From assembly GCA_016214145.1 (NCBI GenBank), contig JACRPA010000004.1, forward strand, positions 106,605 to 170,604: 64,000 nt of DNA, read 5' to 3'. The position numbers and the translations under genes were made by a program. Origin of the DNA: Rhodocyclales bacterium. GTDB lineage: Bacteria > Pseudomonadota > Gammaproteobacteria > Burkholderiales > Rhodocyclaceae. The notes beneath the pieces were generated by a model. It did no database searches and was not told the DNA's origin. It saw nothing but the letters and a program-made list of their open reading frames with translations. Positions 13,899-61,794 of the stretch are shown here, piece by piece (the stretch's first letter is position 1; every line of letters starts with the position of its first letter).

Positions 13899-17363
<3,465 letters not shown>

Positions 17364-17376
17364 GGCCACAGGGGAG

Positions 17377-45761: not shown

Positions 45762-45775
45762 TTGATCCACGTCAA
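45762..45775 (+). promoter_or_regulatory. FNR/Dnr-type box upstream of ubiU
   Basis: TTGAT, CCAC, GTCAA: one mismatch from the TTGAT-N4-ATCAA consensus, 56 bases before the ubiU start. Anaerobic activation of O2-independent ubiquinone synthesis is the obvious reading. Confidence 0.65.
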
Positions 45776-45830: not shown

Positions 45831-46844
45831 ATGCTCACCGGCAAGCCCTTCGAACTCGTCTGCCCGGCCGGCGCCCTGCCGTCGCTGAAGGCCGCCGTCG
45901 ACAACGGCGCCGACTGCGTCTACACCGGCCTCAAGGACAACACCAACGCGCGCAACTTCACCGGCCTGAATTTCGACGATGCGCAGTTGCGCGAGGGCAT
46001 CCGCTACGCCCACGACCGCCGCGTCAAGGTGCTGCTGGCGCTCAACACCTATCCGCAGACGTCGACTTGGGGGCGCTGGACCGCCGCCGTGGACAAGGCG
46101 GCCGACTTCGGCGTCGACGCCGTCATCCTGGCCGACCCCGGCCTGATGGAATACGCGAAGACGAAGCATCCGCAGCTGCGCCTGCACCTCTCGGTGCAGG
46201 GCTCGGCCACCAGCTACGAGGCGATCAATTTCTACCACGAGCAGTTCGGCATCCAGCGCGCCGTGCTGCCGCGCGTGCTGGCCATGCCCCAGATCGAACA
46301 TGTGGTGAAGAACACGCCGGTGGAAATCGAGGTGTTCGGCTTCGGCGGCCTGTGCGTCATGGTGGAAGGCCGCTGCGCGCTGTCCGCCTACGTCACCGGC
46401 GACTCGCCCAACACCGTCGGCGTCTGCTCGCCGGGCAAGGCGGTGCGCTACGAACAGACCGAGCGCGGCATGGAGACGCGCCTCAACGGCGTGCTCATCG
46501 ACCGCTTCGCCGAGGGCGAGAAGACCGGCTATCCGACGCTGTGCAAGGGCCGCTTCGAGGTGAACGAAGAGACCTATTACGCCATCGAGGAGCCGACCAG
46601 CCTCAACACCCTCGAACTGCTGCCGAAGCTGATGGAGATCGGCGTCAAGGCCATCAAGATCGAGGGCCGCCAGCGCAGCCCGGCCTACGTCGCGCAAGTG
46701 ACCAAAGTCTGGCGCGAGGCGATCGATTCCGCCCTGCGCAATCGCCAGGGCTACGCCGTGCGCGAATCCTGGATGGCGGAGCTGAACAAGGTCTCCGAGG
46801 GCAGCATGCACACGCTCGGCGCCTATTACCGCCCATGGAAATAA
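45831..46844 (+). CDS. ubiU: O2-independent ubiquinone hydroxylation protein UbiU
   Basis: A 337-residue protein of the U32 peptidase-like family. With UbiV it hydroxylates the ubiquinone ring without O2, using prephenate as oxygen donor. The four Fe-S cysteines are in GGLCVMVEGRCALS, VGVCSPG and PTLCKGRF. The FNR-type box upstream and the following ubiV and ubiT make the assignment firm. A GTAGGTCGG repeat separates it from ubiV. Confidence 0.92.
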   Translation: MLTGKPFELVCPAGALPSLKAAVDNGADCVYTGLKDNTNARNFTGLNFDDAQLREGIRYAHDRRVKVLLALNTYPQTSTWGRWTAAVDKAADFGVDAVILADPGLMEYAKTKHPQLRLHLSVQGSATSYEAINFYHEQFGIQRAVLPRVLAMPQIEHVVKNTPVEIEVFGFGGLCVMVEGRCALSAYVTGDSPNTVGVCSPGKAVRYEQTERGMETRLNGVLIDRFAEGEKTGYPTLCKGRFEVNEETYYAIEEPTSLNTLELLPKLMEIGVKAIKIEGRQRSPAYVAQVTKVWREAIDSALRNRQGYAVRESWMAELNKVSEGSMHTLGAYYRPWK

Positions 46845-46859
46845 ACGTAATTCGGACAT

Positions 46860-46916
46860 GTAGGTCGGCCTTCAGGCCGACAACAATGGCTGAAGTCGGC
46901 CTGAAGGCCGACCTAC
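46860..46916. repeat. GTAGGTCGG palindromic repeat, copy 7
   Basis: A two-hairpin copy (GTAGGTCGGCCTTCAGGCC ... GGCCTGAAGGCCGACCTAC reversed partner) inside the ubiU-ubiV gap. Confidence 0.9.
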
Positions 46917-46929
46917 GAAAGCGGCAGCC

Positions 46930-47823
46930 ATGAAATTGGCCCTTGGTCCTCTCCTCTATTACTGGCCGCGCCAGCAGGTCATCGATTTCTACGAGGAAAT
47001 TGCGAAGACACCGGTGGACATCGCCTACCTCGGCGAAACGGTCTGCGCCCGCCGCCATGAATTGCGCGTGCAGGACTGGGCGGAGATCGCAGCCAAACTC
47101 GCGGCCGCCGGCAAGCAGGCCATCCTCGGCACGCAGACCCTGATCGAATCCGAATCCGACCTGAAGACCCTGCGCCGCGTCATCGACGAGAAGGGCTTCC
47201 TCACCGAAGCCAACGACATGGGCGCCGTGCGCATCCTCGCCGCGGAGAAACGCCCCTTCGTCGCCGGCCCCTTCCTCAACGTCTTCAACGCCGCCACCCT
47301 GTCCATGATGGCGCGCCTCGGCGCAAGCCGCTGGGTGATGCCGGTCGAGATGTCGGCGGCCTCGCTGGCCGATTTGCAGGCGGCGCGCCCGGCCGGACTG
47401 GAAACCGAGGTGTTCGCCTACGGCCGACTGCCGCTGGCCTTCTCGGCGCGCTGCTTCACCGCGCGCCACTTCAACCTGCAGAAGGACGACTGCCAGTTCA
47501 AGTGCCTCGATTTCCCCGACGGCCTGCTCATCAGGACGCGCGAGGGCGAGGAATTCCTCACGCTCAACGGCATCCAGACGCAATCCTCGAAGGTCTACAA
47601 CCTGATCGGCGAAGTCGACGCCATGCGTGCGCTGGGTGTCGATGTGCTGCGCATCAGCCCCCAGTCACAGCACACGATCGAACTGCTGCAGGCATTCCAC
47701 GACCGCATGCACGGCACGCTCGATCCGTCCGCCGCACGCGAAAGGCTGGCCGGCCTCGGCCTGGCCGAACCCTGCAACGGCTTCTGGTACGGCAAACCCG
47801 GCCTCGACCAAATTGCCGCCTAG
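46930..47823 (+). CDS. ubiV: O2-independent ubiquinone hydroxylation protein UbiV
   Basis: A 297-residue partner of UbiU. Fe-S cysteines in GETVCARRHEL near residue 38, and ARCFTARHFNLQ with KDDCQFKCLD around residues 177-197. The start MKLALGPLLYYWPR is typical. Allows ubiquinone synthesis in anoxic conditions, consistent with a denitrifying lifestyle. Confidence 0.92.
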   Translation: MKLALGPLLYYWPRQQVIDFYEEIAKTPVDIAYLGETVCARRHELRVQDWAEIAAKLAAAGKQAILGTQTLIESESDLKTLRRVIDEKGFLTEANDMGAVRILAAEKRPFVAGPFLNVFNAATLSMMARLGASRWVMPVEMSAASLADLQAARPAGLETEVFAYGRLPLAFSARCFTARHFNLQKDDCQFKCLDFPDGLLIRTREGEEFLTLNGIQTQSSKVYNLIGEVDAMRALGVDVLRISPQSQHTIELLQAFHDRMHGTLDPSAARERLAGLGLAEPCNGFWYGKPGLDQIAA

Positions 47824-47847
47824 GCGGACGCACGGTAGACTGCTCGC

Positions 47848-48354
47848 ATGGACATCATCGAAACCCTGCGCCGCGCCCGCATTCCCCAATTCGAGCTGCC
47901 CCGCCTGGTCGGCAGCATCAACGCGCGCCTGCCGCAGCTGCCGCCCACGCTCGGGCTGGTCAGCGCGCTCAATCTGGCGCTGGACCGCATCCTCCCGCGC
48001 GACACCCTGGAGCCCCTGACCGGCAAGCTGGTCTGCCTGCGCGTCACCGACGGCGGCCTCACCCTGCAATTCACCCTGACGCCGAAGGGTTTTCGCCCCG
48101 CGGTCAGCAGCGCCAGGCCGGATCTGATGATCTCCGCCAAAGCGCGGGATTTCCTCGCCCTGGCCCTGCGCGAGGAAGACCCCGACACCCTGTTCTTCAA
48201 CCGCCGCCTCGTCATGGAAGGCGATACCGACCTCGGCCTGCTGGTGAAAAACACGCTGGACGCGGTCGACTGGCCGCGCCTCGATCCCGAAGACCTGCAC
48301 CCCTTCCGCCTGTTCGCCCAACTCAGGCTGCGGATGGGGCCGTCGAGCCGATAG
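47848..48354 (+). CDS. ubiT: Ubiquinone biosynthesis accessory factor UbiT (SCP2 domain)
   Basis: A 168-residue SCP2-type lipid-binding protein that works with UbiU-UbiV and is thought to bind ubiquinone precursors. SCP2 pattern: LVCLRVTDGGLTLQFTLTP and DTLFFNRRLVMEGDTDLG. It ends 6 bases from the convergent Nod-like gene. Confidence 0.9.
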   Translation: MDIIETLRRARIPQFELPRLVGSINARLPQLPPTLGLVSALNLALDRILPRDTLEPLTGKLVCLRVTDGGLTLQFTLTPKGFRPAVSSARPDLMISAKARDFLALALREEDPDTLFFNRRLVMEGDTDLGLLVKNTLDAVDWPRLDPEDLHPFRLFAQLRLRMGPSSR

Positions 48355-48360
48355 CCAGTT

Positions 48361-50694
48361 CTACTTCGCCAGGATCTCTCCTTCCTTCGCAATCACCTCC
48401 GACAAGGGTTGCGCCGCAGCCTGCTTGAGCCGCGCCGCGCGCGAGAGCAGGAACCAGGCGATGGGCAGCACGCCGCCCAGCACGAACAGGGCGCCGCCGA
48501 CCACCCGCGCCCAAGTCAGCGTCTGGAACACGGCGCCCTCGATATAGGCCTGCGAGCGCGCCCGCCAGTAACCGTCCTCCAGCACCGTGGCGAACTGGTG
48601 GATGCCGACCGGAAACAGATCGATCGCCACCATCAGCAGCAGGCCGAGGTTGATCGACCAGAAAGCGCGCCGCAATAGTTCGCCGTTCCAGCTTCCCGGC
48701 GCGACCAGGTAGCGCCCGCAGAACAGCACCGCCGCCAGCGCCAGATTGCCGTACACCCCCATCAGCGCGGCATGGCCGTGGTTCACCGTCAGATAGGTGC
48801 CATGCTCGTAGTAGTTCACGATCGGCAGGTTGATGATGAAGCCGAACACGCCAGCGCCGAGGAAATTCCAGAAGTTCACGCCGAGCAGGAACAGGAAGGC
48901 CTCGTGCTGGCCGAAGCGCTGCGCGCCTTCACCCTGCATGGAGCGCTCAGGCGTCTTGCGGAACTCCCAGGCCTCCAGGGTGAGCAGGATCAGCGGCACC
49001 ACCTGCAGCGTCGAGAAGACGCTGCCGATGGCCAGCGTCGCCACCGGCTTGGCGTTCCAGTAGAAGTTGTGCGAGATGCCGAGCAGGCCCGAGCCGAGGA
49101 ACAGCAGCGTCGCCAGGTAGACAATGCGCGAGGCCGCCGCGTGGCTCACCAGTCCCATCATCACCATGAAATAGGCCAGCAGCACGGTGGTAAACACCTC
49201 GAAGAAGGCCTCGGCCCACATGTGGATCACCGCCCAGCGCCAGAAGTCGGCGATGACGAAGTTGGTGGTTGGCTTCGCCACGAAGGCCGAGAGGAACAGC
49301 AGCACGATCGAGAGCACGGCGTAGAACAGCCATTTCGGCAGGATCCAGGCATCGCCCTGGTGCCACACCCTGCGCACGCCGCGCCAGACGATCGCCGCCC
49401 AGAGCACGAACACCGCCATCAGCAGCATTTGCCACAGCCGGCCCAATTCAACGAATTCCCAGCCCTGGTTGCCGAGCAGGTTCCAGTATTCGCCAAGCAG
49501 GTTCTTCGGCCCCATGAAGACGCCGACCAGCATGCCCGCCACCAGCACCAGCACCATGCCGAAGAGCAGGTTCACCAGCCGCGCCTGCCCCGGCGGCTCG
49601 CCTTCCGCCACGGCCGAGAGCACGAAGATCGAGGCGCCGATCCAGCAGGCGGTAATCCACAGCAGGGCGAGCTGGATGTGCCAGCCGCGAGTGATCGTGA
49701 GCGGCAGCGCCTGGGCGATGTCCACGCCGAAGAAGCTGGTGAAGCCGATGAAGTCGTGCACCGTCAGCACCCCGGCGACGATCTGCAGCACGAACAGGGC
49801 CGCCGCCGCCGCGAAGAACTTGTAAGCGACGCGCTGGGTTTCGCTCGGCCGCCAGCCCTCGACCCGCGCCAGGGTGGCGAGGTTCTCCTGTTCGCCGCCG
49901 CTGCGCCAGCCGGCCATGCGGCTGTAGCGGCCGTAGAGGAACAGCACGATGCCCAGGCACAGCACCAGGGCCAGCGCGGCGATCACGCTCCACAGCATCA
50001 CCGGCGCGCCGGGCCGGTTGCCGGCCAGTTCGTCATAGGGCCAGTTGTGCGTGTAGCTGTAGTTCACGCCGGGGCGCTGCGCGCCGCAGACCCAGCCGCC
50101 CCAGAAGAAGAAGGCGGCCAGTTCGCGGATCTCCTGCGCATCGGTGATGTAGCCGGCGGGATGAAAGGCTTCCGGCCCCTCGCCGCGGAACATCGCAGTG
50201 TAGTGGCGCACCAGCGCCGCGTAGGCAATGGCCTGGCCCTCGCTCAGCGTCACCCGGTTGCGCGCCGCGTCGTAGCGGTTCTGCCTGATCTCGGCCTGCA
50301 CGCGGGCTAGCGCCGCCGAACGCGCCGCAGTGCCGTTCTCCTGCTGCGGCGGACCGGCGTAATGATCGAGCATCGCCTCGGCCGTGCGGTGCAGGGCGTC
50401 GGCGGTGAAATCGACGCCGCGCGCCGCGCCGTCGCCGAACAGGCTGCCGTAATCCATCAGGGCGTAGCGCTGAAAGGCAAGCTGGCCGCGCAGGATCGCC
50501 TCCTGCGTAACCACCGGCGCGCCGGCGACATCGACGAAGTCCGGGATCGGCGGCGCATCGTCGTAGGTCTTCGCGCCGACGAAGATCATGCTGCCCATGC
50601 CGATGACCATCACCACGGCGAGCGGCAACCACCAGTTGCGCCGGTCCATCACCAGCCGGTTCCAGATGTTGCCCAGCCTGTTTCCCGTTTCCAT
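48361..50694 (-). CDS. nod: Putative nitric oxide dismutase (Nod), quinol NO reductase-like
   Basis: About 777 residues, 14 membrane helices, haem-copper oxidase superfamily with the N-terminal periplasmic domain of qNOR. It keeps the FeB His and Glu in IHMWAEAFFEVF, but the normal His-His pair is His-Asn in LGISHNFYWNAKP (codons at 49066-49071). The quinol site usually contains His-x3-Glu; here HDFIG has Gly in place of Glu (codon 49744-49746). The late acidic residue before the last helix is also Gly (ARVVGGAL). These are the changes reported for NO dismutases of Methylomirabilis, which turn 2 NO into N2 and O2. ATG 50694 has a GGGGGAG site; another ATG lies at 50718. A qNOR function remains the alternative. 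Confidence 0.8.
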   Translation of the reverse strand: METGNRLGNIWNRLVMDRRNWWLPLAVVMVIGMGSMIFVGAKTYDDAPPIPDFVDVAGAPVVTQEAILRGQLAFQRYALMDYGSLFGDGAARGVDFTADALHRTAEAMLDHYAGPPQQENGTAARSAALARVQAEIRQNRYDAARNRVTLSEGQAIAYAALVRHYTAMFRGEGPEAFHPAGYITDAQEIRELAAFFFWGGWVCGAQRPGVNYSYTHNWPYDELAGNRPGAPVMLWSVIAALALVLCLGIVLFLYGRYSRMAGWRSGGEQENLATLARVEGWRPSETQRVAYKFFAAAAALFVLQIVAGVLTVHDFIGFTSFFGVDIAQALPLTITRGWHIQLALLWITACWIGASIFVLSAVAEGEPPGQARLVNLLFGMVLVLVAGMLVGVFMGPKNLLGEYWNLLGNQGWEFVELGRLWQMLLMAVFVLWAAIVWRGVRRVWHQGDAWILPKWLFYAVLSIVLLFLSAFVAKPTTNFVIADFWRWAVIHMWAEAFFEVFTTVLLAYFMVMMGLVSHAAASRIVYLATLLFLGSGLLGISHNFYWNAKPVATLAIGSVFSTLQVVPLILLTLEAWEFRKTPERSMQGEGAQRFGQHEAFLFLLGVNFWNFLGAGVFGFIINLPIVNYYEHGTYLTVNHGHAALMGVYGNLALAAVLFCGRYLVAPGSWNGELLRRAFWSINLGLLLMVAIDLFPVGIHQFATVLEDGYWRARSQAYIEGAVFQTLTWARVVGGALFVLGGVLPIAWFLLSRAARLKQAAAQPLSEVIAKEGEILAK

Positions 50695-50730: not shown

Positions 50731-50854
50731 TTGGCGCCTGCCGCCGGGCCGATTAGTGCCAAGCCCTGCATAACTCTTGGCGCCAGCCGGTGCTCGCCGG
50801 CCTGGCACCAAGGCCGGCACGAAGTGCGGTGCCGACTGGCCCCATTGGCACCAT
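50731..50854. promoter_or_regulatory. Cluster of TTGGCRCCA dyads in the nod-hao divergent region
   Basis: The 236-base gap between the two divergent starts holds five related motifs: TTGGCGCCT (50731), AGTGCCAAG (50755), CTTGGCGCCAG (50776), CCTGGCACCAAGG (50801) and TTGGCACCAT (50845). They look like repeated operator sites for one regulator. Related palindromes occur at 53696 and 55075. Confidence 0.5.
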
Positions 50855-50954
50855 CAGATGTTTCCGGCGCGGCGCTTTCTTCCCCGTTCGGCGAGTCCGA
50901 TGATGGACGCTCGCGAATTCCGTTTGGACGCGTTCAATAAGGGAGGAGACCCCG

Positions 50955-52661
50955 ATGATCGTCAATCTGTGGCAGAAATGCGCAATGCTCCTGCTTGCCT
51001 GCGGCATGCTGTTCGCGGCAGGCGCGCAGGCGGACATTCCCAAGGAAACCTACGATGCGCTGAAGCTGGACAAGTCGGCCACGTCCAAGCAGCTCTATGA
51101 AGCGCTGGTGAAGCGCTACAAGGATCCGGCGGAGGGCGCCGGGCGCGGCACGCATGCCAAGTACTGGGAGCCGATCGCTTTCGACAAATATCTCGATCCG
51201 GCCAACTCCTACAAGCCGCCTTCGTCGGTCAAGGAAGTCTCCTCGCGCCAGCAGTGCGTCAAGTGCCATGCCGACGAGACGCCGGTATGGGTGAATGCCT
51301 GGAAGAAAAGCACGCACGCCAACCTCGACAATATCCGCAAGCTGACGCCCAAGGATGCGACCTACTACAAGAAGGCCAAACTCGAGGAAGTCGAGAACAA
51401 CCTGCGCTCGCACGGCAGGCTGGGCGCCGGCGAGCAGCTCAAGGAGGTCGGCTGCATCGACTGCCACGTTGACGTAAATGCCAAGAAGAGCGCCGACCAC
51501 CGCGCCGACCTGCGCATGCCCACCGCCGACGTCTGCGCCACCTGCCACCTGCAGGAATTCGGCGAGCGCGAGTCCGAGCGCGACACCATTACTTGGCCGA
51601 AGGATCAGTGGCCGAAGGGTCGTCCGTCGCATGCGCTGGATTTCAAGGCCAATATCGAGACGACGATCTGGGCCGGCATGCCGCAGCGCGAAATCGCCGC
51701 CGGCTGCACCACCTGCCACCAGAACCAGAACAAGTGCGACGGCTGCCACACCCGCCATGAGTTCTCGGTGGTCGAGTCGCGCAAGCCGCAGGCCTGCGCC
51801 ACCTGCCACAACGGTGTCGACCACAACAACTGGGAGGCCTACACGCTCTCCAAGCACGGCAAGGTGGCGGAGATCATGGGCGGCAAATGGAACTGGGATG
51901 TGCAGTTGAAGGACGCCTTCGCCAAAGGCGGCCAGACGGCGCCGACCTGCCAGACCTGCCACATGGAGTTCCAGGGCAAGTTCAGCCACAACATGGTGCG
52001 CAAGGTGCGCTGGGCCAACTACCCCTCGGTGCCCGGCATCGCCGAGAACATCAAGGGCGACTGGTCCGAAAAACGTCTGGAGGCCTGGGTGAAAACCTGC
52101 ACCCAGTGCCACAGCGAGAGCCTCGCCCGCTCCTATCTGGACTTGATGGACAAGGGCACGCTGCAGGGGCTGGCCAAGTTCCAGGAAGCGCACAAGGTGG
52201 TCGAGAAGCTCTACGCCGACAAGCTGCTGCCCGGGCAGACGACCAATCGGCCGGCGCCGCCGCCGCCCGACAAGGAAGGCGTGGCGCAGTTCTGGCAGCT
52301 GTTCTGGACCAAGGGCAACCAGCCGTCGTCAATCGAGTTCGAAGCCATCGAGATGGGCGAGAACGATCTGGCCAAGCTGCATGTGGGGATGGCACACGTC
52401 AATCCGGGCGGATGGACTTACACCGAGGGATTTGAGCCCCTCAACCGGGCCTATTCCAAAATCATGAGCGAGGACACCAAGATCCGCGAGATGGCGGCAC
52501 TGAAGGACCGGGTGGCCAAGCTTGAAGCCAAGCGCATCAGCCTGCTCGATCCCGACAATTCGGGCTCCCGCGCATCGCTCGGCGGGCTTGGCGGCGCCCT
52601 GCTGCTGGCCGGCGGCGTGGCGCTGGTCGGCTGGCGCCGGCGCGACAAGTCGGCGCGCTGA
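50955..52661 (+). CDS. haoA: Hydroxylamine oxidoreductase, octaheme (ammonia-oxidizer type)
   Basis: 568 residues: signal peptide to residue 26, eight CxxCH haem sites (Cys at 101, 167, 194, 251, 261, 281, 332, 382) and a C-terminal membrane-like segment ([18 protein letters not shown]). The sequence tracks the Nitrosomonas HAO I remember, for example [26 protein letters not shown] and [13 protein letters not shown]. The active-site motif [12 protein letters not shown] includes Tyr489 (codon 52419-52421), the residue that cross-links haem P460 and marks the oxidative enzyme; reductive octahaem relatives lack it. GGAGGAG ribosome site. Oxidises hydroxylamine to NO in the periplasm. Confidence 0.92.
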
Positions 52662-52670
52662 CCGACCGTC

Positions 52671-53684
52671 ATGGAAGCGGTGCTCGAACGGCCCGGCAAC
52701 CGACTCCTTCCGTCACTGGGACTGCTCCTGGTGGCGGGAGGGCTGTTGCTCCTCGGCTGGATAGCCTACGCGGCCTGGAAACCCGGCCCCGCCCCCTATC
52801 GCTATCAGCTGGTGGAAGAGGGTGGCTCGGACAAATTCGCCAAGCTCAGGCTCGAATCCTGGACCGATCTCAAGATAGGCAAGTATGAGCTCCGCGTCGA
52901 GGGGGTGGACCAACCGGTAGCCGTGGCGCATGTCGCGCGCCGCGGCGACGCCGCACCAGTGATGCTCGGCTGGGAGAACCGCAGCGATGAACCGGCGTTG
53001 TTCGTCGACACCAGGACATCCGAACTGGCGGCGCTGGCCAAGGCGATCGGCAAGCACACGCCTAAGGAAGCCGTTGTGCTCGCCTGGTGGGACACCTCGC
53101 GCCAGATGCGGCTGCTGAGCGGGCGCGAGACGGTCTTCGACACGCACCTGGGTGAGCCCTTCATCGCGCCGGCGGCCTGGCAGACGCGCAGCGGGCCGAT
53201 CGGCAACTACGAGCGCGAGTTCTGGGGCGCAGCGGCGAACGCCGAGGAACAGCGGAAATTGCAACGCTTCGCCGACGCGCTGTCCGGCGGGGTGGAAACG
53301 GGCGTGGCCGCGTTGCGCGAACTGGTGGGGGGGGGCGAAGCCTATGTCGCGGTTCACGTCTCGGACCTCTTCAAGCTCGGGTTGATGCGGCCCGACCGTC
53401 TCGGCGTCGCCTATAAGGACTTCCCGGTGAAGGGCGACCTGCATGGACCGATCGGCTTCGTCAAGCAATGGATGCACGGCAACAAATACGCCGCCTACGC
53501 ACTGCATGAACTTGCCGATGACCAGGTGCGCGTCTTCTTCCTGACCGATGCGAAAAGCAGCGACACGCTGCTGGCGAAAATGCTGCCGCTCACCACTTCC
53601 AGGCCGGCCGAGCTGCAGGCCTTGCAGCTCGTCTATCAGCACGGCGGCTACTGGGTATACAAGATCCCGCCCCGGCAGTCCTGA
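52671..53684 (+). CDS. haoB: Hydroxylamine oxidation protein HaoB
   Basis: A 337-residue protein with one N-terminal membrane helix (LGLLLVAGGLLLLGWIAYAAW) and a periplasmic domain without haem motifs. Position directly after haoA (9-base gap) and before the c554 gene, together with size and topology, matches HaoB of ammonia oxidizers, whose function is unknown. I identify it mainly by context and general similarity. Confidence 0.8.
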   Translation: MEAVLERPGNRLLPSLGLLLVAGGLLLLGWIAYAAWKPGPAPYRYQLVEEGGSDKFAKLRLESWTDLKIGKYELRVEGVDQPVAVAHVARRGDAAPVMLGWENRSDEPALFVDTRTSELAALAKAIGKHTPKEAVVLAWWDTSRQMRLLSGRETVFDTHLGEPFIAPAAWQTRSGPIGNYEREFWGAAANAEEQRKLQRFADALSGGVETGVAALRELVGGGEAYVAVHVSDLFKLGLMRPDRLGVAYKDFPVKGDLHGPIGFVKQWMHGNKYAAYALHELADDQVRVFFLTDAKSSDTLLAKMLPLTTSRPAELQALQLVYQHGGYWVYKIPPRQS

Positions 53685-53695
53685 GCATCTTCCCT

Positions 53696-53733
53696 CTGGC
53701 ACCAGCATCCGGCCCCCGGGTGGTTCTACCACC
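53696..53733. promoter_or_regulatory. GntR-type operator candidates between haoB and cycA
   Basis: CTGGCACCAG (53696-53705, one mismatch from a perfect palindrome) and GGTGGT-TCT-ACCACC (53719-53733). The second contains TGGT-N3-ACCA, the core of FadR-type GntR operators. They lie in the 101-base gap before the cytochrome c554 gene. Confidence 0.45.
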
Positions 53734-53785: not shown

Positions 53786-54490
53786 ATGAAGCTTCATTTT
53801 GCCGGCATGCTGGCCGCCGCCTTATTGCTGACCGCCGCCACTGCCGCGGCGGCCCCCAACTACGAGGGGCGCAAGAAATGCGGCTCCTGCCATCGCAGCC
53901 AGCTCGAATCGTGGGAAAAGACGGCGCACGCCAAGGCCCTGGATTCGCTCGCGCCCAAGGCCAGGACCGAGGCCAAGAAGAAGGCCAAGCTGGATCCGAA
54001 CAAGGACTACCGGCAGGACGCGGACTGCGTCGGCTGCCACTCGACCGGTTTCAACTACGAAGGCGGCTTCGACCCGAAAGAGCCGAGCAAGTACCTCACC
54101 GGCGTCGGCTGCGAGAACTGCCACGGCCCCGGCTCGGAATACCGCCTGCTCCACCGCAAGGCGGGCCAGGCCTTCGAGAAGAAGAAGCAGAGCACGCCGC
54201 GCCAGCAGCTCGCCGATGCGGGACAGGAATTCCAGTTCGAGGAGCGCTGCGCCTCCTGCCACCTGAACTATGAAGGCTCGCCCTGGAAGAGCGCGAAAAA
54301 ACCCTTCACGCCCTTCGCGCCGAAGGTCGACAAAAAGTACGGCTTCGACTACGGCAAGGCGGTGCGCAACGACAAGGTCATGCACGAGCATTTCAAGCTC
54401 GAGGAGGTGTTCGCCGGGCCGCCCGTGCCGCCCTTCCGCGACGAGTTCCAGTCCAAGGCCAAGCCGGCCGTGAAGGGCAAGGAGGAGTGA
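53786..54490 (+). CDS. cycA: Tetraheme cytochrome c554
   Basis: A 234-residue periplasmic electron carrier accepting electrons from HAO. Signal peptide to about residue 23; four CxxCH motifs at Cys 32, 81, 109 and 155 (KCGSCH, CVGCH, CENCH, CASCH). Segments such as FEERCASCHLNYEGSPWK and TGVGCENCHGPG match c554 of Nitrosomonas as I recall it. The stop overlaps the next start (ATGA-type, 4 bases). Confidence 0.92.
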   Translation: MKLHFAGMLAAALLLTAATAAAAPNYEGRKKCGSCHRSQLESWEKTAHAKALDSLAPKARTEAKKKAKLDPNKDYRQDADCVGCHSTGFNYEGGFDPKEPSKYLTGVGCENCHGPGSEYRLLHRKAGQAFEKKKQSTPRQQLADAGQEFQFEERCASCHLNYEGSPWKSAKKPFTPFAPKVDKKYGFDYGKAVRNDKVMHEHFKLEEVFAGPPVPPFRDEFQSKAKPAVKGKEE

Positions 54491-55071
54491 TGGGCGGCGG
54501 GTTGCGCCCATACCTGAGGCAGCACGGCGGCGCGCTGCTGCTTGGTGCAGCGGGTACGCTGGCGCTGATTGCCGCCCTCTTCGGCGGCGAGGCGGCGCTG
54601 TCCACGACGCAGTTCTGCATGAGCTGCCATTCGATGAGCTACCCCGCCGAGGAACTGCAGAAGTCCTCGCATTACGGCGCCCTCGGCGCCAACCCCGGCT
54701 GCAAGGACTGCCACATCCCGCAGGGTCTGGCGAACTTCCATCTCGCCGTGGCAAGCCATGTCATCGACGGTGCCCGGGAACTGGTGCTGGAGTTGAAGAA
54801 CGACTACTCGGACATCAGGAAATTCGACGCCCGGCGGCCCAAGATGGCCCACGACGCGCGCATGAATCTGAAGCGCTGGGACAGCGTCACCTGCCGCGCC
54901 TGCCACAAGGACCCGCAGCCGCCCGGCGCCGACGCCCGGGCGGCGCACGAGAAAATGCGCACGCAGAAGGCCACCTGCATCGACTGCCACCAGAACCTGG
55001 TGCACAAGGAGGTGGCCGAGACCGACCTCGACGCCAGCCTGGCGCAGGGAAGGCGGGTGGTCAAACCCTGA
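54487..55071 (+). CDS. cycB: Tetraheme cytochrome cM552-like quinone reductase (NapC/NrfH family)
   Basis: A 194-residue membrane-anchored cytochrome: one N-terminal helix (residues 14-32) and four CxxCH motifs at Cys 43, 71, 135 and 163 (CMSCHSM, CKDCHIP, CRACHK, CIDCHQNLVHKE). In ammonia oxidizers this protein passes electrons from c554 to the quinone pool. It is shorter at the C-terminus than the Nitrosomonas protein I remember. It completes the haoA-haoB-cycA-cycB set. Confidence 0.88.
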   Translation: MMGGGLRPYLRQHGGALLLGAAGTLALIAALFGGEAALSTTQFCMSCHSMSYPAEELQKSSHYGALGANPGCKDCHIPQGLANFHLAVASHVIDGARELVLELKNDYSDIRKFDARRPKMAHDARMNLKRWDSVTCRACHKDPQPPGADARAAHEKMRTQKATCIDCHQNLVHKEVAETDLDASLAQGRRVVKP

Positions 55072-55074
55072 TCC

Positions 55075-55143
55075 CTGGTACCAGCAGCGCTTTCCGCCGT
55101 GGCCCTATGGACATTGCCGATTTCGGGTCTACCATGAAACCAT
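55075..55143. promoter_or_regulatory. Operator candidates upstream of the MocR regulator
   Basis: A perfect palindrome CTGGTACCAG (55075-55084) just after the cycB stop, and a direct repeat ACCAT-GAA-ACCAT (55131-55143). MocR/GntR proteins are known to use both palindromic and direct-repeat sites, so autoregulation is likely. Confidence 0.45.
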
Positions 55144-55180: not shown

Positions 55181-56737
55181 GTGGAAATCCCGATCTTGCT
55201 CGACCCGAAGAGCCGGCAGTCGCTGCAGGCCCAGCTGTATGAACAGGTGCGCAAACTGATCCTCGGCGGACGCCTGAAGCCCGGCACGCACCTCCCCGCC
55301 AGCCGCGCGCTTGCCGACCAACTTGGTGTTTCCCGCAATACCGTGCTGCTGGCCTATGACCGACTGGCCGCCGAGGGTTATCTACAGACGCGTGAGGCCA
55401 TCGGCACTTATGTCAGCTTCGAGCTGCCCGAGGACTGCCTCACCGCCAAGCGCCTGCCCTTGGCCGCCGGGGCCGGCGCGCAGGATTTCTCCGCGCGTCG
55501 TCCGATCGCCTTCGAGGGCCGCGCCCAGGCGGTGGTCAACCAGCGGCGTCTGGCCTACGACTTCTGGCTCGGCCGGCCCGATCCGCATTCCTTCCCGATC
55601 AAGGCCTGGCGCCGACTCATCAACCGGATGCTGGTCACTGCGGGCACGCGCCTGACCGAGTATCGCGATCCCGCCGGCCTGATCGACCTGCGCAAGGCGA
55701 TCGCCGACCACCTCGGCCCGGCGCGCGGCATCAACGTCGACCCGGACCAGATCATCATCGTCGCCGGCTGCCAGGAGGGGCTCAACCTGACGGCGCGGCT
55801 GCTCCTGCGCGAGGGCATGAGCGTGGCGATCGAGAACCCCGCCTACCAGGGCGCCGCCTACCTCTACGAGAGCTACCGCGCGCACCTGGCGCCGATCGCC
55901 GTGGATGACAGCGGGCTGTGCGTGGATGAATTGCCGGAAGCGGGCGCGGCACTGCTCTACGTGACGCCCTCGCACCAGTATCCGATGGGCTTTACGCTTT
56001 CGCTGGAACGCCGCCTGCGCCTGCTCGACTGGGCCTGGCGCACGGGCACCTACATCGTCGAGGACGACTATGACAGCGATTTCCGCTACCGCGGCTCGCC
56101 GATCGAAGCGCTGATGGGGCTCGACAGCCACGGCTGCGTGATCTACCTGGGCACCTTCTCCAAGTCCATCGGCGCCGGCCTGCGGCTCGGCTACCTCGTC
56201 GTGCCGAAACATCTCGCCGCGCCGGCCCGCGCCGCCAAGGCGCTGCTCGACAACGGACACCCATGGCTGGAGCAGGCGGTGATGGCGGAATTCATCTCCG
56301 GCAACGGCTACAACAACCACCTGCGCCGCATTCGGCAAAGCTACGCCGAGCGCCGCGACTGCCTGGTCGACAGCCTGGGGCGGCATTTCGGCGAGGTCGT
56401 GGTTTCCGGCACCGAATGCGGCATGCACATCGCCTGGCACCTGGCCGAGGACCTGCCGCGCGCGGCCGAGCTGCAGGCCATGGCGGCCGAGCAAGGCGTC
56501 GGCATCTACACCCTGCAGTCCGGGGCGGCCTGCGACTTCGGCGGCTGCATCTATTCCGAGCGGGCCATCATGCTCGGCTTCTCCTCGCTCAACGAGCGGC
56601 AGATCCGCAGCGGCGTTGAGCGCATCGCAGCGGCCGTCGATGCGGCGCGCAGCCCGTCACTCGCTACGACAAACTCGCGCAGACCGCTCCCGACTGCTTC
56701 GCGAACGCACACCTGGCTCCCCCTGGCTAATTCATAG
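55181..56737 (+). CDS. MocR/PdxR-type regulator (GntR domain fused to aminotransferase-like domain)
   Basis: 518 residues: N-terminal GntR winged helix (residues 12-75, PASRALADQLGVSRNTVLLAYDR region), a linker, and a class I aminotransferase-like domain with PLP-binding Lys in LGTFSKSIGAGLRLGY and VEDDYDSDFRYRG. Starts at GTG 55181 with CGGAGGAGG. About 30 extra residues at the C-terminus look unstructured. It follows the hydroxylamine operon by 109 bases; the nearby TGGT-ACCA type palindromes make it a candidate regulator of nod and hao. The effector is unknown. Confidence 0.85.
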   Translation: MEIPILLDPKSRQSLQAQLYEQVRKLILGGRLKPGTHLPASRALADQLGVSRNTVLLAYDRLAAEGYLQTREAIGTYVSFELPEDCLTAKRLPLAAGAGAQDFSARRPIAFEGRAQAVVNQRRLAYDFWLGRPDPHSFPIKAWRRLINRMLVTAGTRLTEYRDPAGLIDLRKAIADHLGPARGINVDPDQIIIVAGCQEGLNLTARLLLREGMSVAIENPAYQGAAYLYESYRAHLAPIAVDDSGLCVDELPEAGAALLYVTPSHQYPMGFTLSLERRLRLLDWAWRTGTYIVEDDYDSDFRYRGSPIEALMGLDSHGCVIYLGTFSKSIGAGLRLGYLVVPKHLAAPARAAKALLDNGHPWLEQAVMAEFISGNGYNNHLRRIRQSYAERRDCLVDSLGRHFGEVVVSGTECGMHIAWHLAEDLPRAAELQAMAAEQGVGIYTLQSGAACDFGGCIYSERAIMLGFSSLNERQIRSGVERIAAAVDAARSPSLATTNSRRPLPTASRTHTWLPLANS

Positions 56738-56857: not shown

Positions 56858-57472
56858 ATGCTTGAAGCCAGCAACCTGGAGTGCGTGCGCGGCGAGAAAA
56901 GCCTGTTTCGCGGCCTGTCGTTCCGGCTCGACCCGGGCGCCTGCCTGATGGTGCAGGGCGCCAACGGCAGCGGCAAGACCAGCCTGTTGCGCATGATCTG
57001 CGGCCTGGCTCAGCCGGAGCAGGGCGATATCCGCTGGAACGGCGAGCCGATCCGCAAGCTGGCGGAGGATTACCGCGGCGAGCTGCTGTATTGCGGCCAC
57101 GCCGGCGCGGTGAAGGACGACCTGACGGCGCTGGAGAACGCGCGCATTTCGGCCACATTGGCCGGCACGCCGGTCGATGTGGAGGCGGCGCGACTGGCGC
57201 TGCGGCAACTGGGCCTGAAGGGGCGCGAAGACCTGCCGGCGCGCGTGCTGTCCGCCGGCCAGAAACGCCGCGTGGCGCTCACCCGCCTGCTGCTGGAGAA
57301 GCGGAAATTGTGGGTGCTCGACGAGCCGCTCACGGCGCTGGACAAGACCGCGGTGGCGAACCTGGGCGGCGTCATCGACGCGCACCTGGCTTCGGGTGGC
57401 ATGGCAGTGCTGACCAGTCACCAGGACCTGCCGCTGGCGGCAGGCCGTGTCGAGCAACTGCGGCTCGACTGA
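56858..57472 (+). CDS. ccmA: Haem exporter ATP-binding subunit CcmA
   Basis: A 204-residue ABC ATPase: Walker A GANGSGKTSL, signature LSAGQKRRVALTRLLL, Walker B LWVLDEPLTALD. It releases haem-loaded CcmE from the CcmABCD complex during cytochrome c maturation. First gene of the ccm operon. Its stop overlaps ccmB by one base (TGATG). Confidence 0.95.
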   Translation: MLEASNLECVRGEKSLFRGLSFRLDPGACLMVQGANGSGKTSLLRMICGLAQPEQGDIRWNGEPIRKLAEDYRGELLYCGHAGAVKDDLTALENARISATLAGTPVDVEAARLALRQLGLKGREDLPARVLSAGQKRRVALTRLLLEKRKLWVLDEPLTALDKTAVANLGGVIDAHLASGGMAVLTSHQDLPLAAGRVEQLRLD

Positions 57473-58155
57473 TGGCTGAGACGAGCCTTCTGTCGGCGCT
57501 CGGCGCGGTCATCCGGCGCGACCTGCTGCTCGCCATGCGGCGCAAGTCGGACGTGCTGACGACGCTGTTCTTCTTCGTCATCGTCGTCAGCCTGTTCCCG
57601 CTCGGCATCGGGCCGGAAATGGCCATGCTGCGCCAGATCGCGCCCGGCGTGCTGTGGGTGGCGGCGCTGCTGGCGACCATGTTGTCGCTGAACCGCCTGT
57701 TCGCCGCGGATCACGCCGACGGCACGCTGGAGCAGATGGCCCTGTCGGCGGTGCCGCTCGGCGTGCTGGTGACGGGGAAAGTGGTCGCCCACTGGCTGCT
57801 GTCCGGCCTGCCGCTGGCGCTGCTGGCGCCGGTGCTGGGGCTGCAGTTCGACCTGGCGGCCGGCTCGCTGGGGGTGATGGTGGTCGCGCTGCTCATCGGC
57901 ACGCCGGTGCTCAGCCTGATCGGCGCCATCGGCGCAGCGCTGACCCTGGGCGTGCGCGGCGGCGGCGTGCTGGTGTCGCTGCTGGTGCTGCCGCTGTATG
58001 TGCCGGTGCTGATCTTCGGCGCCGGCGCGGTGGAGGCCGACTTGGGCGGCCTGGGCGCGACGGCGCACCTGTCGCTGCTGGCGGCCTTCCTGGCGCTGGC
58101 GGCTTTTTTCGGACCGTGGGCAACGACGGTTGCATTAAGGATTGCATTGGAATGA
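57472..58155 (+). CDS. ccmB: Haem exporter membrane subunit CcmB
   Basis: A 227-residue inner-membrane protein with six helices, partner of CcmA. Family features: RRDLLLAMRRKSDVLTTLFFF at the N-terminus and LNRLFAADHADGTLEQM. A repeat fills the 100-base gap to ccmC. Confidence 0.95.
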   Translation: MAETSLLSALGAVIRRDLLLAMRRKSDVLTTLFFFVIVVSLFPLGIGPEMAMLRQIAPGVLWVAALLATMLSLNRLFAADHADGTLEQMALSAVPLGVLVTGKVVAHWLLSGLPLALLAPVLGLQFDLAAGSLGVMVVALLIGTPVLSLIGAIGAALTLGVRGGGVLVSLLVLPLYVPVLIFGAGAVEADLGGLGATAHLSLLAAFLALAAFFGPWATTVALRIALE

Positions 58156-58167
58156 ACAAGAATCTTC

Positions 58168-58243
58168 ACCACCAAGGCACCAAGGCACCAAGATGCACCA
58201 AGAAGTTCTTTGTGCCCCTTGGTGCTCTTGGTGTCTTGGTGGT
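58168..58243. repeat. CACCAAGG inverted repeat
   Basis: CACCACCAAGGCACCAAGG on the left; CCTTGGTGCTCTTGGTGTC and TTGGTGGT on the right. It lies between ccmB and ccmC and resembles the design of the CAAAGACGCAAAG family (short unit repeated in each arm) but differs in sequence. Confidence 0.75.
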
Positions 58244-58255
58244 TTGCTGTTAAAA

Positions 58256-59005
58256 ATGTCGAATCGCATCGTCAATTGGTTCAAGTTCGCCTCGCCGCAG
58301 ACCTTCTATCCGCTGGCGGGGAAGATGATTCCCTGGTTCTGGGCGCTGACGGCCGTGTTCGGCCTCGTCGGCCTCTACATCGGCTTCTTCGTCGCGCCCA
58401 CCGACGCCCAGCAGGGCGAGGGCTACCGCATCATCTTCATCCACGTGCCGGCCTCGTGGCTGTCGATGTTCATCTATCTCATCATGGCCTTCTGGGCGGC
58501 GCTCGGCCTCGGCTTCAACACACGCCTGTCCGGCATGATGGCTTCCGCCTTGGCGCCGACCGGCGCGCTGATGGCCTTCCTCTCGCTGTGGACCGGCGCC
58601 CTCTGGGGCAAGCCGATGTGGGGCACCTGGTGGGTGTGGGACGCGCGGCTGACCTCCGAACTGATCCTGTTCTTCCTCTACCTCGGCTTCATCGCCCTGC
58701 AGTCGGCCATCGACGATGCGCGCCGCGCCGACAAGGCCGGCGCCGTGCTGGCGCTGGTCGGCGTGGCCAACATTCCCATCATCTATTTCTCGGTGAAATG
58801 GTGGAATACCCTGCACCAGGGCGCCTCGGTCAGCCTGACCCGCTCGCCCTCGATGGCGCAGACCATGCTGTGGGGCATGCTGCTGATGGCGCTGGCCTTC
58901 TGGATGTATTCCATTGCCGTGTCGCTGACCCGCGTGCGCGCCATCATCCTGGAGCGGGAGCGCCACGCCGGCTGGGTGGAAGAACTCAAGGAACTGAAAT
59001 CATGA
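58256..59005 (+). CDS. ccmC: Haem delivery protein CcmC
   Basis: A 249-residue six-helix membrane protein of the haem-handling family. The tryptophan-rich periplasmic loop is GTWWVWDARLTSE, flanked by haem-ligand histidines (FIHVPASW and NTLHQGASV). Loads haem onto CcmE. The stop overlaps the ccmD start (ATGA). Confidence 0.95.
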   Translation: MSNRIVNWFKFASPQTFYPLAGKMIPWFWALTAVFGLVGLYIGFFVAPTDAQQGEGYRIIFIHVPASWLSMFIYLIMAFWAALGLGFNTRLSGMMASALAPTGALMAFLSLWTGALWGKPMWGTWWVWDARLTSELILFFLYLGFIALQSAIDDARRADKAGAVLALVGVANIPIIYFSVKWWNTLHQGASVSLTRSPSMAQTMLWGMLLMALAFWMYSIAVSLTRVRAIILERERHAGWVEELKELKS

Positions 59006-59193
59006 AGTGGAACAGCTTCTCCGAGTTTCTCGCCATGGGCGGCCACGCGCTCTACGTCTGGGGCTCCTTCGGCGCCTGCCTGCTGCTCATGATCGTGGAA
59101 CCTATTCTCGCCAAGGCGCGTCGAAGCAACGCCCTCACCGAACTCAAGCGGGAAATCGCCGCTCGCAAGGAAAATGTGAATGAAAATTTCTGA
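59002..59193 (+). CDS. ccmD: Cytochrome c maturation protein CcmD
   Basis: A 63-residue small membrane protein: MGGHALYVWGSFGACLLLM helix followed by a charged C-terminal tail (LKREIAARKEN). Stabilises the CcmC-CcmE contact in the CcmABCD complex. Too small for confident homology alone, but position and pattern are typical. Confidence 0.9.
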   Translation: MKWNSFSEFLAMGGHALYVWGSFGACLLLMIVEPILAKARRSNALTELKREIAARKENVNENF

Positions 59194-59199
59194 AATGAA

Positions 59200-59267
59200 C
59201 ATTTCGGCGCAGGCTAACCTTGGCGCAGCCAAGGTTAAGCCGCGCAGCGGCGGCCGGAGCCAAAATG
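59200..59267. repeat. Palindromic repeat D, copy 2 (supplies the ccmE start)
   Basis: Inverted ends CATTTCGGC / GCCAAAATG, inner GGCTAACCTT...AAGGTTAAG hairpin and GC stem, as in copy 1 at 10914. The last three bases are the ATG of ccmE, and CGGAGCC inside the repeat is its ribosome site. Confidence 0.7.
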
Positions 59268-59711
59268 AAACCGAGACATAAACGCTTCGCCCTCATCGGC
59301 GGCGGCCTCGCCGTGCTGGGGCTAGCCGCCGCGCTGGTGCTCAATGCCTTCCAGAGCAACCTGGTGTTCTTCTTCACGCCGACGCAGATCGCGGCGGGCG
59401 AGGCGCCCAAGGGCAAGGCCTTCCGCATCGGCGGCCTGGTCAAGGATGGCAGCCTGAAGCGCCAGCCCGACGGCCTCACCGTGCAGTTCATCGTCACCGA
59501 CACGGCGAAGGAATTCCCGGTCGCCTACACCGGCATCCTGCCCGACCTGTTCCGCGAAGGGAAAGGCGTCGTGGCGCAGGGCAAGCTGGGCGAGAACGGC
59601 CTGTTCACCGCCAGCGAAGTGCTGGCCAAGCACGACGAAAATTACATGCCCCCTGAAGCGCAGCATGCGGTCGATGAGGCGCACAAGGCGGCAAAGACGG
59701 TGAAGCAATGA
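59265..59711 (+). CDS. ccmE: Haem chaperone CcmE
   Basis: A 148-residue periplasmic haem chaperone with an N-terminal anchor (residues 8-27) and an OB-fold. The haem-attaching His is His123 and the stabilising Tyr is Tyr127 in [12 protein letters not shown]. Start codon and ribosome site lie in repeat D. A CAAAGACGCAAAG repeat separates it from ccmF. Confidence 0.95.
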
Positions 59712-59720
59712 TGAAAACTC

Positions 59721-59821
59721 TTTCAACGCAAAGAACGCAAAGACGCAAAGAACGCAAAGGGTCTTTGGTTCATGTTTTGCGATTTCTTTGCGACCTTTGC
59801 GCCTTTGCGCCCTTTGCGTCA
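59721..59821. repeat. CAAAGACGCAAAG inverted repeat, copy 3
   Basis: CTTTCAACGCAAAGAACGC on the left and CTTTGCGCCTTTGCG units on the right, between ccmE and ccmF. The ATGAAAAC bases just before it resemble those before copy 2 in tolQ-tolR. Confidence 0.85.
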
Positions 59822-59835
59822 GGAGCGGTTATCCG

Positions 59836-61794
59836 ATGATCCCCGAACTCGGCCACTTCGCCCTGATCCTCGCACTGCTCGTCGCCCTCGTGCAGGGCAC
59901 CCTGCCGCTGGCCGGTGCCGCCAACGGCAGCCGGCCGTGGATCGCGCTGGCGCGACCGGCGGCGCGCGCGCAGTTCCTGCTCGTCGCGCTCGCCTTCGGC
60001 TGCCTCACCTGGGCCTTCGTCGCCAACGATTTCTCCGTCGTCTACACGGCGCAGCATTCCAACTCGCGCCTGCCGCTGATGTACCGCATCGCCGCTGTCT
60101 GGGGCGGCCACGAGGGTTCGCTGCTCTTGTGGATGCTGATGCTCTCCGGCTGGACGGTGGCGGTGTCCTTCCTCTCGCGCCACCTGCCCGACGCCATGGC
60201 GGCGCGCGTGCTCGGCGTGCTCGGCCTGGTCGCCGCCGGCTTCCTGCTCTTCATCCTGCTCACTTCCAGCCCCTTCGAGCGCCTGCTGCCAGCCGCCGAA
60301 GACGGCCGCGACCTGAATCCCCTGCTGCAGGATCCGGGCCTGGTGTTCCATCCACCCATGCTCTACATGGGCTATGTCGGCTTCTCGGTGGCCTTCGCCT
60401 TCGCCATCGCCGCGCTGCTCTCCGGCCAGCTCGACGCCGCCTGGGCGCGCTGGTCGCGGCCGTGGACCACGGCGGCCTGGGTCTTCCTCACGCTCGGCAT
60501 CGCCCTTGGTTCCTGGTGGGCCTATTACGAGCTGGGCTGGGGCGGCTGGTGGTTCTGGGACCCGGTGGAGAACGCCTCCTTCATGCCCTGGCTGGTGGGC
60601 ACGGCGCTGGTGCATTCGCTGGCGGTGACGGAAAAGCGCGGCGGCTTCAAGAACTGGACGGTGCTGCTGGCCATCGCCGCCTTCTCGCTCTCGCTGCTCG
60701 GCACCTTCCTCGTGCGCTCGGGCGTGCTCTCCTCGGTGCACGCCTTCGCCACCGATCCGCGCCGCGGCATCTTCATCCTGATCTTCCTCGCCGCGGTGGT
60801 CGGCGGCTCGCTGTTCCTCTTCGCCCTGCGTGCGCCGAAAGTCGGGCTGGGCGGCGCCTTCGGCCTGGTCTCGCGCGAATCGCTGCTGCTGATGAACAAC
60901 GTGCTGCTGCTGGTGGCCGCCGGCAGCGTGCTGCTCGGCACGCTCTACCCGCTCTTCATCGACGCGCTGGGCATGGGCAAGCTGTCGGTCGGGCCGCCCT
61001 ATTTCAACTCAGTCTTCGTGCCGCTGATGGTGCCGGCGCTGCTGCTCATGGCGCCCGGCCCGCTGATGCGCTGGAAGCACGCCAGCCTGGCGGACACGCT
61101 GAAGCCGCTGTGGCCCGCCGTATTGGCGGCACTGACTTTTGCCGTCGCCGTGCCCTTCGCCTACGGACGCTGGTCGCCGCTGGTGGCGCTGGGCATCGCG
61201 CTGGCCGCCTGGATCGTCGGCGCCAGCGCGGTCGGCATCGTCGCCCGCCTGCGCGGCAGCCAGGGCGGACTGCTTGAACAGCCGCGCAGCTGGTGGGGCA
61301 TGCATCTGGCGCACATCGGCATCGCCGCCTTCGTCCTCGGCGTCACGCTGGTGTCGGCCTACCAGGAGGAAAAGGATGTGCGCATGGAGCCGGACGACAC
61401 GGTGACGGTGGGCGGCTACACCTTCCGCTTCGTCGGCGTGCGGCCGGAGATGGGGCCGAACTACCGTGCCATGGTGGGTGAAGTGGAACTCTCGAAAGAG
61501 GGCAAGGCGCTGAAAACCATGCACCCGGAAAAACGCAGCTACTTCTCCTCGGCCATGCCAATGACCGAGGCGGCCATCGACGCGGGGGTTCTGCGCGACG
61601 TCTATGTCTCGCTCGGCGAACCGATTGACGAGCGCGCCTGGAGCGTGCGCGTGTACTACAAGCCCTTCGTCGACTGGATCTGGGGCGGCTGCCTGCTCAT
61701 GGCGCTGGGCGGCCTGCTTGCCCTGAGCGACCGGCGCTACCGACTGAAGAAGGCCGTGAGCGCCGTGCCGGCCATGCAAGGAGCCAAGGCATGA
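59836..61794 (+). CDS. ccmF: Cytochrome c haem lyase subunit CcmF
   Basis: A 652-residue polytopic membrane protein; with CcmH/I it joins haem from CcmE to apocytochrome c. Tryptophan-rich domain GWGGWWFWDPVENASFMPW near residue 240 and GHEGSLLLW earlier. It contains a nearly complete GACTGACTTT-family element (61116-61143) within a transmembrane stretch (AALTFAVAVP). Start ATG 59836 follows an AGGAGCGG ribosome site. Confidence 0.96.
   Translation: MIPELGHFALILALLVALVQGTLPLAGAANGSRPWIALARPAARAQFLLVALAFGCLTWAFVANDFSVVYTAQHSNSRLPLMYRIAAVWGGHEGSLLLWMLMLSGWTVAVSFLSRHLPDAMAARVLGVLGLVAAGFLLFILLTSSPFERLLPAAEDGRDLNPLLQDPGLVFHPPMLYMGYVGFSVAFAFAIAALLSGQLDAAWARWSRPWTTAAWVFLTLGIALGSWWAYYELGWGGWWFWDPVENASFMPWLVGTALVHSLAVTEKRGGFKNWTVLLAIAAFSLSLLGTFLVRSGVLSSVHAFATDPRRGIFILIFLAAVVGGSLFLFALRAPKVGLGGAFGLVSRESLLLMNNVLLLVAAGSVLLGTLYPLFIDALGMGKLSVGPPYFNSVFVPLMVPALLLMAPGPLMRWKHASLADTLKPLWPAVLAALTFAVAVPFAYGRWSPLVALGIALAAWIVGASAVGIVARLRGSQGGLLEQPRSWWGMHLAHIGIAAFVLGVTLVSAYQEEKDVRMEPDDTVTVGGYTFRFVGVRPEMGPNYRAMVGEVELSKEGKALKTMHPEKRSYFSSAMPMTEAAIDAGVLRDVYVSLGEPIDERAWSVRVYYKPFVDWIWGGCLLMALGGLLALSDRRYRLKKAVSAVPAMQGAKA
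61116..61143 (+). repeat. GACTGACTTT-family element inside ccmF
   Basis: CGCCGTAT, TGGCGGC, then ACTGACTTTTGCC: one mismatch in the 10-mer, full upstream part, in frame and sense. Confidence 0.55.

Follow-up and report, generated by a model that had tools for sequence, protein, structure and literature searches.

What might a nitric oxide (NO) dismutase do beside genes for hydroxylamine oxidation? The question is raised by a locus in a Rhodocyclales bacterium (assembly GCA_016214145.1), on a stretch of 64,000 nucleotides of contig JACRPA010000004.1 (positions 106,605 to 170,604) that we analysed as a whole and call the window. In it, nod, a putative NO dismutase gene (48361..50694, minus strand), stands divergent from the adjoining genes haoA-haoB-cycA-cycB, which are followed by one for a MocR-type regulator. 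The reading that we favour, while placing it slightly on the doubtful side of even, is that the Nod-clade protein would make N2 and O2 by splitting NO, which is predicted to arise from hydroxylamine by hydroxylamine oxidoreductase (HAO) and from nitrite by NirS, and that the MocR regulator, as predicted, would control it. This proposal rests on diagnostic residues, clade membership, gene order, the lack of nod at the same locus in two genus-mates, the conservation of palindromes and how the regulator is distributed among genomes. What is new is the placement of nod and its predicted control together with hydroxylamine oxidation; by itself, the window nod is, as judged from sequence, a new member of a known family and an ordinary enzyme for that family. 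In the excerpts of open-access literature examined, no description of nod beside a hao cluster was found.

Residues and phylogeny of the window Nod

An initial annotation, made from the letters of the DNA alone, had proposed that this gene, resembling those of quinol-dependent NO reductases (qNORs), carries the substitutions of NO dismutases. Without naming a strand, it read the FeB ligand pair His-His as His-Asn, the quinol-site Glu as Gly and a late Asp as Gly, with the quinol-site His and a Phe still present. We aligned the protein with two structural qNORs, numbering residues as in the Geobacillus enzyme, and found every one of these readings again. On the minus strand, His559 (49069-49071) and Asn560 (49066-49068, Asn in place of His) form the FeB pair at 49066..49071 in the alignment to 3ayf, Gly332 (49744..49746) stands where the qNOR set has Glu or Asp, Gly746 (48493..48495) replaces an Asp present in 27 of 28 qNOR-type rows, and His328 and Phe336 are retained at the quinol site. 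One further mark had been overlooked, namely Gln581 (49003..49005) instead of the qNOR Glu. The protein also has His508, Glu512 and Glu516. It shows none of the qNOR features His560, Glu581, an acidic residue at 332 and Asp746, and it carries the Nod features Asn560 and Gln581 with loss of Glu332 and Asp746. The marks given for putative Nods in PMC3413370 are a coordinating His changed to Asn, a catalytic Glu changed to Gln and an unfit quinol site.

The tree, midpoint rooted, comprised 359 rows (the window protein, 240 database proteins, 116 loci and two structures). Asn560 came with Gln581 in 331 rows and His560 with Glu581 in the other 28; since there was no mixed row among the 359, the pairing is not due to chance. 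All 331 rows with Asn560 and Gln581 formed a single clade (support 1.0), which includes the window protein and lies apart from the 28 qNOR-type rows; in a smaller tree of 211 rows, the Nod clade had a support of 0.992. Duplicates were few, the 331 Nod rows corresponding to 327 distinct sequences over residues 61-700, and in some cases a single genome is represented by two loci (L002 and L107, for example). L122 was too short and was left out of the trees, and L195 was kept as a qNOR-type row with a partly wrong-looking frame. The tree was built without Nod references from Methylomirabilis, HdN1 or Muricauda, its sole anchor being P0197, which its source calls a nitric oxide dismutase, and the clade rows were gathered with two queries, so the sample is not random.

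How firmly the quinol site defines a Nod can be read from the clade itself. PMC10286720 confirms the change of His560 to Asn and reports that nod clones from soil and sediment consistently deviate at positions 328, 332 and 336. Among these three positions, the window Nod deviates only at 332, and the clone-type deviation at 328 and 336 was not found in it; it is a milder case at the quinol site because His328 and Phe336 are kept. They are also kept elsewhere in the clade, His328 in 179 and Phe336 in 89 of the 331 rows. On this alignment, deviation at 328 and 336 is variable within the clade, so it is not a defining Nod mark.

By residues and tree, the window gene belongs with the Nods, and a plain qNOR identity was ruled out on the same grounds. 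The products of this predicted dismutase from NO would likely be N2 and O2. An NO reductase fed by a non-quinol electron donor, with N2O as its product, is a very improbable alternative. It would fit the qNOR fold shared by the model (below), the retention of His508, His559, Glu512 and Glu516 in the window protein and nearly all members of the clade, and the fact that NO disproportionation was still termed unproven in 2022 (PMC9562985). Against it, no row of the clade keeps His560, Glu581 or Asp746 (with a gap at 746 in two of the 331 rows), and position 332 is acidic in only one of 331 Nod rows (123 gapped) versus 28 of 28 qNOR-type rows.

As regards the fold, the protein matched PF22085 (NorB cytochrome c-like domain) and PF00115 (COX1), and none of the NCBIfam models fitted it. 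Its nearest solved structures were qNORs, 3ayf at the top, and none of the 13 distinct matching chains was named a dismutase. An AlphaFold2 model, computed from a 53-row alignment as a cofactor-free protein chain, had a mean predicted local distance difference test score of 86 and a template modelling score of 0.87 to 3ayf; identity was 37% to 3ayf and 33% to 8bgw, with the same fold. The window protein differs from these two qNORs at four catalytic or quinol-site residues and, as said, in its position in the tree. With the putative Nods of Methylomirabilis oxyfera, HdN1 and Muricauda, as described in PMC3413370, it shares the changes of FeB His to Asn and of catalytic Glu to Gln, an altered quinol site, the other FeB ligands and a qNOR-like fold with a haem-free c domain. 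It differs from them in host lineage, in keeping His328 and Phe336 and in being adjacent to hao genes, whereas the hosts described there oxidise methane or alkanes. The nod product has 777 residues from ATG 50694 or 785 from ATG 50718. The former is the better start, because a GGGGGAG run resembling a ribosome-binding site precedes it and a 92% identical homologue (P0001) starts at the matching residue.

A hydroxylamine oxidation cluster of the ammonia-oxidiser type

The genes next to nod all lie on the plus strand. The haoA product (50955..52661, PF13447), an HAO of the ammonia-oxidiser type, is ~70% identical to Nitrosomonas europaea HAO (1fgj) and has the eight CxxCH c-haem motifs of such enzymes, its Tyr489 corresponding to the crosslinking Tyr467. 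It is followed by haoB (52671..53684; TIGR04392, 396 bits for a cut-off of 200) and by cycA (53786..54490, PF13435), whose c554-like product has four CxxCH motifs and stays below the NF043010 cut-off (350 bits vs 400). Then comes cycB (54487..55071, PF03264), encoding a cM552-like, quinone-linked tetrahaem cytochrome of the NapC/NirT family, also with four CxxCH motifs; its place in the gene order matches an ammonia-oxidiser locus (L193). The regulator gene (mocR, 55181..56737) encodes a GntR domain (PF00392) and an aminotransferase domain (PF00155), the latter keeping the pyridoxal phosphate (PLP) lysine, Lys328, in a GTFSKS motif.

Compared with the Nitrosomonas-type cluster, the order haoA-haoB-cycA-cycB is the same, as are the eight-haem HAO with its crosslinking Tyr, HaoB, the tetrahaem c554 and the membrane cytochrome. 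The window locus differs by its additional MocR gene and by nod, which was present only here among the hao loci fetched, and no ammonia monooxygenase was found in the window genome. There, AmoA (PF02461) had no match, as compared with matches in 7 of the 13 genomes that have haoB; three match-less haoB genomes (G214, G244 and G274) share a family with the seven matching ones, and assembly gaps can hide AmoA.

Probable insertion of nod into an older locus

Was nod part of this locus from the start? Among 16 genomes of the genus, haoB was found in five (in one as a fragment below cut-off), and Nod, at 69% identity at least, in the window genome, in G464, in G594 and, in part, in G726. Two genus-mates, G408 and G630, have the series ubiU-ubiV-ubiT-haoA-haoB-cycA-cycB-mocR-ccm without nod, their ubiT-haoA gaps measuring 295 bp and 194 bp, respectively. 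Because these two have the same locus without it, nod was probably inserted, by horizontal transfer as gene order and tree suggest, between ubiT and the hao promoter of an older locus. In the tree, the window Nod sits in a 17-member clade (support 0.988), and the genus-mate Nods of G464 and G594 are in another subclade. Base composition gave no sign of a foreign origin, GC content at third codon positions being 0.915 in nod and 0.828 to 0.923 in eleven other window genes.

Predicted MocR control of nod and the hao genes

A palindrome of the type YTGGCACCAR is kept before haoA, cycA and mocR, and further copies lie before nod in the window and not in the nod-less loci. Upstream of haoA it forms a pair (TGGCACCA), 43-44 bp apart, in the window and in L197, L198 and L190. 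In the window, this predicted operator pair lies at 50802..50854 (-153 and -110 relative to haoA, 43 bp apart). The predicted operators before cycA (53696..53705, at -90) and before mocR (55075..55084, at -106) recur in the same three loci and in L199 and L200. The nod-side predicted operators (50731..50786) start at 50731, 50753 and 50777, that is, 37, 59 and 83 bp before ATG 50694.

We scored these sites by running over the 64 kb a position weight matrix whose training set was nine haoA upstream sites, including two of the window. The five top matches all fell at the locus: 55075, which was the best, 50802, 50845, 53696 and 50777. As 50802 and 50845 are training sites, those outside the training set are the ones before mocR (55075), cycA (53696) and nod (50777). 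The sixth match, at 49357, is inside nod. The three nod-side sites scored 13.4 bits (50777), 8.9 (50753) and 6.6 (50731), and none of 5000 Markov sequences matched the best two of these scores. None of 81 other nod upstream regions reached 13 and one reached 12.4; in that set, the upstream window of L030 is wrong and L184 repeats L002. In the nod-less loci L197 and L198, no site comparable to those on the nod side was found beyond the haoA pair, the best extra matches scoring 5.6 and 9.2 (both inside the pair) and, upstream in L198, 6.3. L191 had only one haoA site, and no palindrome was found in the ammonia-oxidiser hao loci L192 and L193, L192 being 3.6 kb long with little sequence upstream of haoA.

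The distribution of the regulator points in the same direction. Of the 399 genomes searched in the order, three gave a MocR orthologue (G000, which is the window genome, G039 and G355), and all three are within the 13 that have haoB (hypergeometric p = 3e-5); 12 of these 13 were over the haoB cut-off, and the scan scored the three best candidates per genome. AmoA had a match in none of the three. The orthologue also adjoins hao in the genus-mate loci L197, L198, L199 and L200. The site before mocR suggests autoregulation, and nod is predicted, from the sites before it, to be under MocR control together with the hao genes. According to PMC5320631, MocR operators are repeated boxes and autoregulation is frequent among the genes of these factors; the main text of that paper makes no mention of hydroxylamine. 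In Alcaligenes, a cluster that takes hydroxylamine to N2 is under the control of DnfR, a MocR-family regulator (PMC12575085, PMC9136411). What the window locus has in common with this Dirammox system (dnfT1RT2ABCD) is a MocR-family regulator over hydroxylamine-to-N2 genes. The two differ in that DnfA carries the annotation of a diiron N-oxygenase with hydroxylamine as its substrate, and the seven genes, as described in these sources, include neither HAO nor Nod.

Sources and fates of NO

The favoured scheme would run as follows. HAO would oxidise NH2OH to NO, and three electrons would reach quinone via c554 (CycA) and the CycB cytochrome. From 2 NO, Nod would form N2 + O2, and a terminal oxidase would spend four of the six electrons on this O2, the net reaction being 2 NH2OH -> N2 + 2 H2O + 2 H+ + 2 e-. 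The inserted nod would have picked up MocR sites, and MocR would control both arms. NO is a product of HAO, and hydroxylamine reacts with PLP to form an oxime; MocR, with its PLP lysine motif, could sense hydroxylamine. In its strongest form, the scheme becomes a hydroxylamine-fed, self-oxygenating respiration, in which the PLP-binding MocR would sense hydroxylamine and turn on HAO and the recruited Nod, with no need for ammonia monooxygenase or nitrite. This stronger form is possible and, in our judgement, doubtful.

The rest of the genome bears on this scheme. Cytochrome c and cytochrome d1 domains occur together in two proteins, which are nirS-like and which NCBIfam models leave unnamed; no nirK exceeded the cut-off anywhere in the genome, and a Sec-dependent nosZ is present. 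Six COX1-family genes were found, Nod included. Two of them lack the active-site Tyr: a B-type haem-copper oxidase (L165:10125-11807), with HSSQQ in the HPIVY region and ~22 kb from a nirS-like gene on the same contig, and an A-type-like one (L167:9493-11022), with HNLME in place of HPEVY. From these motifs, the two may be NO reductases of other classes, presumably among those called bNOR, sNOR and eNOR. A genome without any other NO route was thus ruled out by the two nirS-like genes, nosZ and the two NO reductase (NOR)-like oxidases, and an early idea, that NO comes solely from hydroxylamine, was ruled out by the nirS-like genes.

Several of these observations, along with others, weigh against the scheme. 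NO need not pass through Nod, because the genome has the two nirS-like proteins, nosZ and the two NOR-like oxidases. The pairing of nod with haoB is not conserved, being found in one of the 16 genus genomes, that of the window, and no haoA homologue lies near nod in 79 of 80 nod loci from named genomes, 16 of the 80 being shorter than 12 kb. On the regulatory side, NCBIfam NF052282 names the MocR protein PdxR, a regulator of pyridoxine synthesis (444 bits, cut-off 320). Being 178-224 bp upstream of haoA, the nod-side sites could act on that gene alone, and only one of the three is strong. In G355, a single site precedes haoA, and cycA and mocR have none. A search of the 13 genomes with a two-site pattern gave 11 matches vs 6 for a reversed-pattern control, hence it is non-specific by itself; the hao-upstream pair was among the matches in G000, G408, G630 and G039.

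Some of these observations lend weight to ordinary nitrite-fed oxygenic denitrification, wherein NirS would supply NO, Nod would make N2 and O2 for oxidases or oxygenases, and adjacency to hao would be incidental. Besides the nirS-like proteins and the scarcity of HAO neighbours among nods, nitrite is the NO source in the Methylomirabilis work (PMC9562985). Yet the MocR-type sites before nod attain a score that none of the 81 other nod upstream regions reached, and nod is placed in the hao promoter interval, neither of which favours an incidental neighbourhood. We hold this explanation to be somewhat unlikely.

Alternatively, Nod could serve as a safety valve that clears NO released by HAO, O2 or N2O being a mere by-product with no role in energy. 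The known release of NO by HAO, the co-placement and predicted co-control of nod and hao, and the occurrence of other NOR-like candidates on other contigs would all agree with this. Conversely, nod is missing from genus-mates that have the same hao locus, and the genome already has other NOR-like genes, which makes such a role clearly unlikely.

Nitrite reductase is usually taken to supply Nod with its NO. If the favoured scheme, with MocR-controlled HAO and Nod, held true, nitrification enzymes would be linked to oxygenic denitrification, and dark oxygen production would gain a second source of NO. Sensing of hydroxylamine by MocR proteins through PLP, if real, would explain both the window cluster and DnfR of Alcaligenes. 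With a single regulator, a single palindrome and two transcription units that diverge, the locus is a small testable unit.

The Nod family and its usual neighbourhoods

The initial annotation had considered Nod to be rare and knew of none well described in a betaproteobacterium with this gene neighbourhood. The rarity did not hold. Relatives scored in two protein searches numbered 1096 and 1201, Nod and NOR unsorted, and the best 120 of each all had the Asn560/Gln581 pair (240 of 240), as did all 80 loci taken from named genomes. These loci cover Rhodocyclaceae, Sulfuritalea, Burkholderiaceae, Gammaproteobacteria, Planctomycetota, Bacteroidota and others; among betaproteobacteria, Sulfuritalea, Lautropia and other Burkholderiaceae have Nod. 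Rarity of the family was ruled out by both searches and the named loci together. The suspicion that the gene neighbourhood was unusual was borne out. In 79 of 80 named loci, the DNA examined contained no haoA homologue. The only named locus with one is L076, from the planctomycete RIFCSPLOWO2_12_FULL_40_19, where the homologue is distant (30%) and divergent from nod. This HAO-like multihaem gene (L076:8157-12259) keeps a Tyr aligned to the crosslink position and makes up an independent nod-HAO pair. L037 showed only a weak cycA match near nod.

Many nods of Rhodocyclaceae and Burkholderiales (L002-L017, L183-L189) have other common neighbours, which we labelled by reading the sequences, and not by a family search, as a MauG/peroxidase-like di-haem gene, a small cytochrome c, an aldehyde dehydrogenase and an exporter. 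None of these four was seen around the window nod. Four contigs of metagenome-assembled genomes of the anammox 'Candidatus Scalindua' (L028, L029, L030 and L047) also bear nod. A second, deep Nod type, with Thr at 328 and 45-46% identity to the window Nod, was found in G559, G531 and G485 (L113, L114 and L115), genomes that belong to the same family as that of the window.

Flanking genes

To the left of nod lie ubiU-ubiV-ubiT, for oxygen-independent ubiquinone synthesis (45831..48354, plus strand), which exceeded the cut-offs of NF047963, NF047965 and NF047962 and which also flank the nod-less loci L197 and L198. To the right of mocR is a ccm cluster (56858..62315, plus strand), in which ccmA, ccmC, ccmF and dsbE/ccmG were tested and which is kept in L197 and L198. 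An FNR box in the nod-haoA interval was considered and rejected, the interval holding one relaxed TTG-N8-CAA at 50924 that is absent from the 400 bp before haoA in L197 and L198. An FNR-type box (TTGAY-N4-RTCAA) occurs at 45762, ~70 bp before ubiU, and is one of two in the window. Farther away, the window carries a gene for an MmeI-like single-chain restriction-modification protein (13899-17369).

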